Of a stretch of 64,000 bases of DNA, positions 60,231 to 64,000 are shown piece after piece (the first letter of the stretch is position 1; each line of letters opens with the position of its first letter). A program made the position numbers and the translations under genes. This DNA is from Candidatus Treponema caballi (GTDB lineage: Bacteria; Spirochaetota; Spirochaetia; Treponematales; Treponemataceae), in contig JAGHRS010000051.1 of the NCBI GenBank assembly GCA_018066285.1, positions 1-64,000 of the forward strand, written 5' to 3'. The notes under the pieces were generated by a model, which did no database searches, was not told the DNA's origin, and was given only the letters and a program-made list of their open reading frames with translations.

Positions 60231-60974
60231 ATGAGTATCAAACGTTTTCTGGCAGTCATACTGCTTACCGGATGCATTTTTTCTGCTTTTGCAGCTGATG
60301 AAGAGGGCGAAGCGCCTGATTACAGCAAGAGTATTCCAGAATACAACCGGGCGACAATAGTCAAGGGGATTAAATCCGTTCGCGCTCCGTTCATCTCGGG
60401 AGATTATGCCGTCTTCACGGCAGAAAGCACATCCCGTTACGTTGGAATTGCCTTCGATTTTGAAAACTACAGGCAGATCCACACGTTCAACGAAATTGTT
60501 TCCTATGATGAAAACGGAGAACGCCAGAGTTCCATGTACATCTTCCTGCAGCCACTTCCAAAGAACTGCAAACGGATTACCTACAGGCTCGTCATTGACG
60601 GATTGTGGACTTCCGATTCAAGCAACAGCAACAGATATTTCGACAGTAAAGTCGGAACCTGGTTCTCATATATAGACGTTGAGCGTCCATACGAAATTGA
60701 GACTTCCGTCACCTCCGGCCACAATGTTCACTTCGTTTACGAAGGAAAACCCGGTCAGAAAATCAGGCTTGCAGGCAGTTTCAACAACTGGGATTCGTTC
60801 ATCTACTATCTGAATGAAACAGATCCCGGACGTTACGAACTCGACCTTACACTGCCAACTGGAAGCTGGTACTACTGCTTCTATTCCGGAATGGAGCGTC
60901 TGACCGACCCGAACAATATGGACCGCGTCTACACCCAGGACGGCCGCATCGCCTCCGTTATCACAGTAAAATAA
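60231..60974 (+). CDS. secreted protein with CBM48/AMPK-type glycogen-binding domain
   Basis: 247 aa with a signal peptide (KRFLAVILLTGCIFSAFA, mature start ADEEGE). Residues about 30-160 form a beta domain without a clear family. Residues about 170-247 are a carbohydrate-binding module 48-like fold: KIRLAGSFNNWDSFIYYLN, GRYELDLTLPTGSWYYCFY and LTDPNN, the same plan as the glycogen-binding domain of AMPK beta. Such domains also occur on periplasmic proteins with no sugar role. A Cys in the signal peptide (LTGC) is a possible lipobox. The gene ends just before the first structured repeat, which may serve as its terminator. Confidence 0.78.
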   Translation: MSIKRFLAVILLTGCIFSAFAADEEGEAPDYSKSIPEYNRATIVKGIKSVRAPFISGDYAVFTAESTSRYVGIAFDFENYRQIHTFNEIVSYDENGERQSSMYIFLQPLPKNCKRITYRLVIDGLWTSDSSNSNRYFDSKVGTWFSYIDVERPYEIETSVTSGHNVHFVYEGKPGQKIRLAGSFNNWDSFIYYLNETDPGRYELDLTLPTGSWYYCFYSGMERLTDPNNMDRVYTQDGRIASVITVK

Positions 60975-61000
60975 ACAAACGTTTTTCTTTTTTAATGATT

Positions 61001-61131
61001 AGAAGTGGGCGTCACTGCCTGCCGGTGCCATGTGGGATGCCGCGGCAACAATAGGTATCTCACTCACCCGCAAGGCGGGTTCGGGGCCGATGCATCCCGC
61101 ATGTCCCCGTCCGGCAATACCGTCCACTTCT
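61001..61131 (+). ncRNA. structured repeat element, copy 1 (plus orientation)
   Basis: About 131 nt folding into a long stem: outer AGAAGTGG/CCACTTCT (61001-61008 with 61124-61131), GCCGG/CCGGC (61021-61025 with 61111-61115), an 11-bp stem (61030-61040 with 61092-61102), CGGC/GCCG (61043-61046 with 61086-61089) and an apical ACCCGC/GCGGGT hairpin (61066-61071 with 61075-61080). Unpaired AGGTATCTCACTC precedes, and TCGGGGCCGA follows, the apical hairpin. A T-rich stretch after the outer stem makes it a plausible terminator for the CBM48 gene. A 96-aa open frame here is an artefact. No known RNA family was recognised. Confidence 0.6.
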
Positions 61132-61196
61132 TTTCTTTAAAAAGCAAGCGTTTGGGCTGTTATTGCAGAAAAAAACGAACGCGTTTATTTAAAGAG

Positions 61197-61325
61197 AGAG
61201 AGGGTGGGACAGCCGTATGGGGCACCCTGTGTCGCCTCGGCCCCGAGCGCCGTAAAGCGGCGCGAGTGAGATACCTTAGCGCCGCAGCGACATAGGGGGC
61301 ACCAGAAGGCTGGCACACCCTCTCT
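61197..61325 (-). ncRNA. structured repeat element, copy 2 (minus orientation)
   Basis: The same fold as copy 1, read on the minus strand: outer AGAGAGGGTG/CACCCTCTCT (61325-61316 with 61206-61197), AGCC/GGCT (61311-61308 with 61214-61211), an 11-bp stem (61297-61287 with 61235-61225), CGGC/GCCG (61284-61281 with 61241-61238) and an apical GCGCCG/CGGCGC hairpin. The strings GGTGCC, GCGGC, AGGTATCTCACTC and TCGGGGCCGA match copy 1, whereas outer, 11-bp and apical stem sequences differ yet still pair. The 66 bp between the copies is AT-rich and holds nothing else that I can support. Confidence 0.6.
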
Positions 61326-61347
61326 TTATTAAAAGAAAATCGTTCGT

Positions 61348-64000
61348 TTATTTATTCAGGATGAACTCGACGCGGCGGTTTTTCCACCAGTTGTCTTTGT
61401 CCTCGCGGGCGACTACCGGCTCGCGACCACCCTTTCCTACAGTTGTAAGACGGTCTGCCTGAATACCATATTCAACGAGAACCTGCTTAACGTAATCAGC
61501 GCGTTCCTTTGAAAGCGGCTCGAGAGCAGGACCGTACATGGTCGTTGTCTGAGTCTCTTCCATTTCTGTGCCCGAAACATTGTTTGCATGTCCTTCAATC
61601 GTTACATCGTAGTCGCGGAACTTCGCAAGAATCTCTGCAACACGCTTCAGGACGCGGATATTGTTGTCACGCTGATCTGCAGTAATACCATTCTTTGTAA
61701 TCTTACCGTCAGGACCAGTCTCACCGACGAGACAGAAGTCAGCTGCATCTCCACGGAAGATGATTGATGGAATCTGCATCTTGAGGACATCACCGACACG
61801 GATGACCAGAACGTCAACAGGGATAATGCCTGAGACTGTTGATGTCATACCAAGTTCATCGGTTACGGTGAACTCATACGGATAGTCCATTGCAGACTGA
61901 ACAAGCTCGCCAGAATTACTGCGTCCATCCCAGATGATGCGCTCTGTAATGGCTGACTTACCGCTTGTCTTCCAGAAAGTACTTCCGTTCTGCGGATCCT
62001 TGATTTCAAATGACCACTGGGTAAAAGGAACAATATCAACACCAGACAGGCTGATGTAAAGGTCATCGTCTACACCGTCGTTATCAGGACTGAAATACTC
62101 AGGCGCAGTGCGTACGGTAAGCTGAGGCGGCGTAATTGAATTTACGAACGGCTGAGTCGTTGTCGTAAGCACATCACCCTTTACATAGTTGATGGTCAGG
62201 TTTCCTGTGAACGTTCCTTCAGCAGGTTTTCCGTTAGAAGCGGCACCGTCCCAGACAATTTCAGACGGGACATCGGCACTGTCTCTGCTTGACCACTCGC
62301 GGGCCTTTGTTCCGTCAGCCGATGTAATCGCAAAGCTCCATGATTCAATACCGTCGGAAGGCGTTACCATGATGCTGAATGTCTGCGAATCGCGGTAACC
62401 GTCGCCGTTAGGAGCGAACTTGTCATATTCTGCTGTAAGATATGCCTTTACCGCACGCGTATCTACGACAATGCCCTTAATCTCGGCAAGGGCGCTGTTT
62501 CCAGCGTCATCAACTGTTTCTGCCTTGAAAGCGTACGTTCCGTCCGGAACAACGTTACCGTTTTCATCAGTTCCGTCCCAGAGGAACTGGTCTGGTTTTT
62601 CGCTTGTCTCAGAGCGGATGACTTCACCCTTTGCATCAGTAATCTGACAGAGCCATCTGTTTTCGCGCGTTGCTGTGATTGCAACAGGCAGCGTATCCTT
62701 CTTTCCGTCACCGTTTGGTGAGAAGATGAGATACGGCGTCGAAAGCGCAACTTCCGGATAGATTGTATCAAGTTCAAACGGCTGTGTAGTTACCGTATTT
62801 TCATTTCCGTTGTCAGCACGGGTAAAGAGCTGTGCGGTGTACATGCCTTCAGCACAGCGGTCGCCGGCATCATCAGTTCCGTTCCACTGGAATGAGGATG
62901 GCAGCGCTTTCTTACTGTCACTGATGGTGCGCACAACCTTTCCTGAAGCATCAAGAATGCGCATTTCGTAGTAAGCGATGTTGCTCTTTGACTTAAGCTG
63001 AGGTGAAAGAACGAGCACATCCTTTGTCTTGTCGTTGTTCGGAGAGAACGCCTTGTCGCTTGCAGTAAACAGAACTTCTGTCGTTCCCGTATCAAGTGAG
63101 AATGCAACGGTTTCTGCAGTTACGCTGTTACCCGCAAGGTCAGTAGCGGTCAGTTTATAAGTGTACTTACCATCAGCGATAAGGCCCTTCGCGTTGATAC
63201 CATCCCAGGTAACTGTCGCAGGTGGCAGTTCGCCAAAGTCATATTCCTTGATAACCTTGCCTGCCTCATCATAAATGGCACCGTACCAGTTTTTCTCTTT
63301 TGAGGTTTCCTGAGTAAAGGTGATTGTATCAAGGCGACCGTCTCCATCAGGTGAGAAGATGGCAGAATCTGTGCGGACAAGCGCAGACGGCGGCGTGTTA
63401 TCAATGGTGAGGTTTCTTGAAATGTAGCATTCCTGGCCGTTGTTGAACTGTGCCGTAAACTGAAGCTGATAGTCACCGTCAGCAAGAACGCTGCCATTTG
63501 TACCTTTTCCGTCAAATGTGAAGTCAGCAGGAGCCGCCGTCGTTCCCGTCCAGGAACGGACAGTTGCGCCTGCTTTTGAAACAACAGCTATCTTCCAGGA
63601 AACGAGGCCGGAGCTGTTTGTCATGACTGGCTGAACATCAAGTGCATCCTTTATGCCGTCTCCGTTCGGAGAGAATGGTGTTCCCTTTACTGTCAGATTA
63701 ACTGAACGCGGAATTGCATCGTAAATGATGTTCGACACAAGAACAGGCTCAGAGATGTTTCCGGCCCGGTCCGTAGAGGTAATCTTATAGGAATAGACGC
63801 CTTCAGGAACTGCAGTACCAAGCTCATCCTTTCCGTCCCATGCTACATCTTCAGGAGCAGAATTCTTCCACGTCCAGGTCTTGATTACTTCTCCGTTTAC
63901 ATCAGAAATCGTACCGGTCCACAAATCTTCAACAGAGCCCGACTGTTTGATGAGCACTGTTTCCTTGTTGCCGGCACCGAAAATCTTCGCAGCTTCAGAA
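61348..64000 (-). CDS. OmpA-family surface protein with FlgD-like Ig repeats, 5' end beyond window
   Basis: The frame stays open to the right edge (SEAAKIFGAGNKETVL and onward), so only the C-terminal 883 or so residues are seen; the in-frame GTG at 63957 is not a real start. Six copies of a motif like FSPNGDGIKD (variants FSPDGDG, FSPNNDK, FAPNGDG, FSPDNDG) introduce repeats of about 95 residues. Seven copies of a FlgD-type Ig turn, WDGxDxxGxxVPDGxYxxxxxxxDxAGN, alternate with them. The aspartate-rich loops probably bind calcium. The last 150 residues are an OmpA peptidoglycan-binding domain (VTIEGHANNV, LSKERADYVKQVLVEYGI, NRRVEFILNK). Expected on the outer membrane, tethered to the cell wall. 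Confidence 0.85.
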   Translation of the reverse strand, partial: SEAAKIFGAGNKETVLIKQSGSVEDLWTGTISDVNGEVIKTWTWKNSAPEDVAWDGKDELGTAVPEGVYSYKITSTDRAGNISEPVLVSNIIYDAIPRSVNLTVKGTPFSPNGDGIKDALDVQPVMTNSSGLVSWKIAVVSKAGATVRSWTGTTAAPADFTFDGKGTNGSVLADGDYQLQFTAQFNNGQECYISRNLTIDNTPPSALVRTDSAIFSPDGDGRLDTITFTQETSKEKNWYGAIYDEAGKVIKEYDFGELPPATVTWDGINAKGLIADGKYTYKLTATDLAGNSVTAETVAFSLDTGTTEVLFTASDKAFSPNNDKTKDVLVLSPQLKSKSNIAYYEMRILDASGKVVRTISDSKKALPSSFQWNGTDDAGDRCAEGMYTAQLFTRADNGNENTVTTQPFELDTIYPEVALSTPYLIFSPNGDGKKDTLPVAITATRENRWLCQITDAKGEVIRSETSEKPDQFLWDGTDENGNVVPDGTYAFKAETVDDAGNSALAEIKGIVVDTRAVKAYLTAEYDKFAPNGDGYRDSQTFSIMVTPSDGIESWSFAITSADGTKAREWSSRDSADVPSEIVWDGAASNGKPAEGTFTGNLTINYVKGDVLTTTTQPFVNSITPPQLTVRTAPEYFSPDNDGVDDDLYISLSGVDIVPFTQWSFEIKDPQNGSTFWKTSGKSAITERIIWDGRSNSGELVQSAMDYPYEFTVTDELGMTSTVSGIIPVDVLVIRVGDVLKMQIPSIIFRGDAADFCLVGETGPDGKITKNGITADQRDNNIRVLKRVAEILAKFRDYDVTIEGHANNVSGTEMEETQTTTMYGPALEPLSKERADYVKQVLVEYGIQADRLTTVGKGGREPVVAREDKDNWWKNRRVEFILNK

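Follow-up and report, generated by a model that had tools for sequence, protein, structure and literature searches.

An uncatalogued family of dispersed, strand-specific hairpin elements with conserved structure in Treponemataceae

The window analyzed here, a stretch of 64,000 nucleotides from Candidatus Treponema caballi, contains a convergent gene gap that is filled by two long hairpins belonging to a family of elements that has not previously been catalogued. The family is real, dispersed and strand-specific, and the fold itself is the conserved object, with stems that change in sequence and keep their pairing. It covaries and occurs in dozens of treponeme genomes, a single one of which can carry as many as 23 copies. 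Neither Rfam nor the papers searched contain it. The family behaves as a dispersed repeat and is conserved in the manner of a structured RNA. Our preferred reading, to which we assign a probability of about 0.5, is an interspersed, structured foldback family of the Treponemataceae in which one folded strand is recognized and copied; mobility is considered probable, and both the factor acting in trans and its recognition of the element are inferred. The family offers a natural system for asking how a folded element gets copied and why hosts retain it, and a covariance model is ready for its annotation.

Architecture and covariation of the elements

On one side of the gap, a gene for an AMPK1_CBM-domain protein ends at 60974; on the other, one for an FlgD_ig/OmpA protein ends at 61348. 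An earlier note, made from the letters of the window alone, had described two inverted copies of one structured element at this place. Both are present in opposite orientation (Table 1), and none of 200 dinucleotide shuffles folds as well as either copy. As had been noted, the loop strings are identical in the two copies, and the outer stem, the middle stem and the apical hairpin differ in sequence yet pair in both. The fold that the note proposed is borne out, but its length of about 130 nt is too short, as pairing extends over the full intervals given in Table 1; the inverted repeat of copy 2 alone measures 78 nt (arms 61164-61241 and 61281-61358). An open frame of 96 amino acids runs across both copies (61005-61295) and is almost certainly spurious.

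Table 1. Positions of the two elements and their parts in the window.
Feature	Position	Fold-bearing strand	Remarks
Copy 1, whole imperfect hairpin	60976..61154	-	arms aligned outward from the tip, 48 Watson-Crick pairs; fold z -5.6
Copy 1 tip	61043..61090	-	inner stem CGGC/GCCG, conserved loop strings AGGTATCTCACTC and TCGGGGCCGA
Copy 1 apical hairpin, ACCCGC-AAG-GCGGGT	61066..61080	-	
Copy 2, whole imperfect hairpin	61164..61359	+	56 Watson-Crick pairs; fold z -6.6
Copy 2 tip	61237..61284	+	loop strings as in copy 1; covariance-model match 61213-61299
Copy 2 apical hairpin, GCGCCG(TAAAG)CGGCGC	61247..61263	+	covarying helix, 94.7% paired over 23 copies
Double-hairpin unit, both copies and spacer	60976..61359	.	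C35/C17 alignment, ~90% identity

An exact core pattern matched the window assembly 13 times, and a covariance model built from these 13 copies (R1) identified 23 copies on 13 contigs of the window genome; a model rebuilt from the 23 recovers the same 23. All are intergenic and situated between unrelated genes. All of the copies form the tips of long hairpins. The two arms of a hairpin can be aligned over roughly 24-120 columns (median near 80), and arms are mostly unrelated in sequence from one copy to another. Each element is a single long rod-like hairpin with a conserved tip, which reads GUGCGAGC-[hairpin]-GCGAGUCARAUACCUUAUA on the fold-bearing strand. The tip with the AGGTATCTCACTC/TCGGGGCCGA loop strings is identical or nearly so in 18 of the 23 copies and takes a variant form in the other 5, and two core variants, CGGCGCTAWGGTATCTCACTC...TCGGGGCCG and CGCAGCTATGGTATCCGACTC...CTCGCGGGCG, occur in the genome. 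The helices are conserved in length and free in sequence, and are interrupted by recurring purine-rich G.A internal loops (GAA/GUA, GA/AN and GCGA/GGGA). The five inverted pairs in the window genome, together with one in genome G279, all share one relative orientation.

Across the 23 window-genome copies, 85% of cells are paired and both sides have changed in 13 of 17 pairs, affording a covariation score of 0.462, as compared with 0.155 for shuffled and at most 0.129 for slid controls. For 49 distinct sequences from other genomes, the corresponding values are 94.2% of cells, 24 of 25 pairs, and a score of 0.722, with 0.205 for shuffled and no more than 0.143 for slid controls. Both alignments were fitted to the structure and are hence biased towards it; the gap to both controls is large, and the criterion for selection on a structured RNA, covariation beyond shuffled and slid controls, is met. 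The compensatory change that the earlier note inferred from only two copies holds with 13, then 23, copies from the window genome and then with the 49 sequences from elsewhere. Covariation alone cannot separate RNA from single-stranded DNA, and part of it may reflect the replacement of one copy by another instead of stepwise change. Templated correction, with one arm serving as the template for the other, is not excluded, although as the sole source of covariation it is unsupported because changes confined to a single arm are seen in close copies.

Distribution among treponemes

A search of 244 other Treponemataceae genomes with R1 returned no match. The implied confinement of the family to one genome proved to be an artifact of the sensitivity of R1, since a model from divergent copies matches 49 others. 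A relaxed pattern matched diverged members of the family in the genus-mates G061 and G047 (the rumen Treponemataceae MAGs RUI404 and RUI560), and the covariance model built from these copies (R3) gave matches in 49 of 274 Treponemataceae genomes, spread over 3 of 20 genera; as many as 12 copies were counted per genome, with only 13 candidates scored in each. Under strict filters, R3 did not recover the window-genome copies; what connects the two branches is not one model but the core that both contain (GGTAT..SACTCG[hairpin]CTCG), together with their tip geometry and internal loops. Genomes differ in copy number, from none detected up to 23; carriers include many gut and rumen treponemes, and the distribution is patchy, with no copy detected in most of the 274 genomes. 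In genome G264, matches lie about 41-95 bases from the starts of four contigs (C2, C9, C252 and C253), which suggests that the repeat breaks short-read assemblies and that copy numbers are underestimated.

Both searches proposed in the earlier note support its suggestion of a new RNA or repeat family. Covariance models found many matches with further covariation in the window genome and in other treponemes, and comparison with Rfam 15 at its curated gathering cut-offs gave no match in the window, nothing credible up to an E value of 10 in the element and no match in six divergent homologous loci. Viral contigs, phages and plasmids yielded no copy; they were searched by exact pattern or blastn only, such that diverged copies could escape. 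An exact-core scan of reference genomes and viral contigs returned only divergent cores of the G061 type, in RUI404 and RUI560; three further matches in Deltaproteobacteria and Hyphomonas look like chance, and their flanks lack the arms of the family. The gap syntenic to that of the window holds no copy recognizable by eye in six genus-mates, in which the neighboring protein is just 44-52% identical. A search of open-licence PMC papers, by sequence string and by topic, yielded no relevant match.

Strand, context and the means of spread

The earlier note had read the fold on the wrong strand: G.A mismatches and greater stability identify the reverse complement as the fold-bearing one. When non-Watson-Crick positions were counted in arms aligned without preference for wobble, G.A outnumbered C.U on this strand by 167 to 24 in the window genome and by 233 to 56 in other genomes, an excess that comes partly from the conserved loops described above. 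The corresponding counts for G.U and A.C are 88 and 42 in the window genome (p 7e-5) and 71 and 60 elsewhere. Of 78 copies, 66 also fold more stably on this strand than on its complement when RNA parameters are used, and 74 do so when DNA parameters are used. The G.A asymmetry and the strand-biased stability together indicate that a single folded strand is the conserved object. Within helices G.U is rare, at 1.8% of cells (0.6% for A.C), and it is for this reason that the choice between RNA and single-stranded DNA remains unresolved.

Should the strand be DNA, the element could serve as a landmark for a host protein acting in replication, segregation, uptake or recombination, as a folded single strand or an extruded cruciform and without any need for transcription; binding of such a protein is inferred. 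The stability under DNA parameters, the low share of G.U, the random orientation (below) and the restriction of copies to intergenic DNA are all compatible with a site of this kind, but the patchy distribution, with absence from most genomes of the family, would be odd for a core chromosomal function, and we regard this explanation as unlikely.

Examination of 73 copies in their genomic context places 21 in convergent, 19 in divergent, 14 in tandem sense and 13 in tandem antisense positions, with 6 at contig edges; these counts rest on crude ORF calls, and arrays were counted copy by copy. The orientation of the element relative to genes is random, with no preference. Because context and orientation are mixed in this way, a leader, a riboswitch or a terminator can be excluded as the general role. 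The terminator in particular had been suggested from the convergent position of the window copies, and hairpins so placed, a number of them beside T-rich stretches, could be intrinsic terminators or merely chance palindromes. Divergent gaps are however about equally frequent, the multi-loop architecture is conserved across genera, and neither a terminator-like nor a promoter-like site was found at the window copies; as a general explanation this one is refuted, and we leave it next to no weight. Of the roles listed in the earlier note, the terminator becomes unlikely as the general one and a covarying structured RNA or repeat family stands. Some copies (at loci L143/L146 and L141) lie between divergent genes, where two promoter regions would be separated.

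Several lineages contain copies that behave as discrete units. In genome G220, four copies of about 130 bp are ~98% identical from TAATTTGATTTAC to GTAAATCAAATTA, which are the exact ends of the element in this lineage, and then diverge completely, their flanks being unrelated; a set of five related copies in G031 shows similar behavior. The G220 units have TA at both ends, which could be part of the palindrome, and no empty site is available for comparison. In the window genome (G000), the double-hairpin unit recurs between other genes at positions 4512-4900 of contig C17, with one clean compensatory change in the apical hairpin (the A-T pair of copy 1 is G-C in the C17 paralogue), and both units start directly behind the upstream gene's stop codon. 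The G220 copies and the C17/C35 unit fulfill the criterion for a foldback element or MITE, namely that a delimited unit bearing terminal inverted repeats occurs at sites unrelated to one another. In G047, a tandem array of 279-bp units carries one element per unit (locus L135, 1-1223, on contig C123; also L136, L138 and L139). Several contigs of that assembly end in this array, behind which comes another with a period of 113 bp.

In the foldback reading, one strand would fold on itself, and a trans-acting factor would recognize it by its tip and G.A loops. Were copying to depend on the folded strand, selection would keep the fold while helix sequences drift by compensatory change. Both steps are inferred; the folded strand may be RNA or single-stranded DNA, and the putative factor is not a Y1/REP transposase. 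This reading is supported by the 23 copies, the patchy occurrence in 49 of 274 genomes, the covariation, the strand signature, the discrete units, the 279-bp array, the lack of orientation preference over genes and the uniform relative orientation of the inverted pairs. No empty site, target duplication or mobilizing enzyme has been demonstrated. It remains possible, though doubtful, that the family represents a new class of mobile element that spreads and persists via a strand-specific folded nucleic acid, either RNA or single-stranded DNA, with free helices and an undescribed mobilizing or binding factor.

The main rival is a host-functional family of structured noncoding RNAs, whose copies would be transcribed and act in trans, for example as protein-binding RNAs, and whose paralogues would arise by segmental duplication; transcription here is likewise inferred. 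Support comes from orthologous copies, matched between species by their flanking genes. Between related species most such copies are in place and are 99-100% identical, as compared with 83-99% for their flanks: the cores at L144/L145 are identical between flanks of 83-89% identity, and the elements at L143/L146 and L131/L132/L163 differ at 0-1 positions in 100 between flanks of 91-99%. This persistence favors a host function because a decaying MITE would not outlast its flanks in conservation. Compensatory change at orthologous loci points the same way, with four double changes that preserve pairs in L119/L172 and eleven in L154/L172, where the stems have changed wholesale just downstream of the same aminotransferase gene. 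That gene looks like dapL (named by eye), and the L154/L172 pair could instead reflect independent arrival at the same site. A host RNA would also account for the purine-rich internal loops and tip, for covarying helices of fixed length and for the excess of G.U over A.C in the window genome. On the other hand, that excess barely exists in other genomes and G.U is scarce overall, the G220 units share no flanking sequence able to serve as a promoter, the window copies lack a promoter-like site, context and orientation are random, and copy number varies down to none detected. We consider a host RNA a serious possibility, with about one chance in three.

Mobilizer search and comparison with known systems

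Pfam analysis of the neighbors of the copies examined revealed ordinary genes and no adjoining transposase. The window genome has a single Y1_Tnp gene, which is RAYT-like and encodes 247 amino acids (locus L102, 1465-2208, on contig C26). The presence of this gene, and the occurrence of the elements as dispersed intergenic palindromes, often in inverted pairs, would accord with repeats of the REP/REPIN type, which a single-copy Y1 tyrosine transposase (RAYT) mobilizes. That gene is however flanked on both sides by a short repeat of its own, ggggacggttctc, which is different from the element, and 16 of the 17 carrier genomes tested lack Y1_Tnp. A Y1 transposase is thereby refuted as the general mobilizer, and a REP/REPIN origin is highly improbable.

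The likeness to REP/BIME/REPIN sequences with RAYT nevertheless extends to multi-copy intergenic imperfect palindromes, inverted pairs and movement of the pair as a unit. The treponeme elements differ in size (130-250 nt, as compared with ~30 for REP), in stems that are free in sequence and covary, in conservation of the tip and not the foot, and in the absence of Y1_Tnp from nearly all carriers tested. With MITEs and foldback elements such as Correia (NEMIS) and ERIC they share short, non-coding, palindromic units with sharp ends between genes. Unlike these, their terminal arms are not conserved across lineages while the tip and internal loops are, the structure is kept by compensatory change, and no related transposase has been identified, Y1_Tnp being the only one searched for.

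Integron attC sites likewise present a folded single strand with strand bias, bulges, internal loops, variable stems and occasional arrays. In the treponeme elements, by contrast, it is the tip that is conserved and not basal R and L boxes (no basal motifs were recognized by eye), and copies are mostly solitary between ordinary genes and do not end gene cassettes; the criterion of a cassette array is unmet, the sole array being built of 279-bp units that could hardly accommodate a gene. The covarying helices and conserved purine-rich loops recall structured RNA motifs of the kind held in Rfam, from which the elements differ in matching no Rfam 15 family. Rickettsia palindromic elements and Bacillus bcr1, which belong to other phyla, are likewise dispersed and palindromic, fold in an RNA-like manner and measure 100-160 nt; set beside them without sequence comparison, the treponeme elements are distinguished by their intergenic location.
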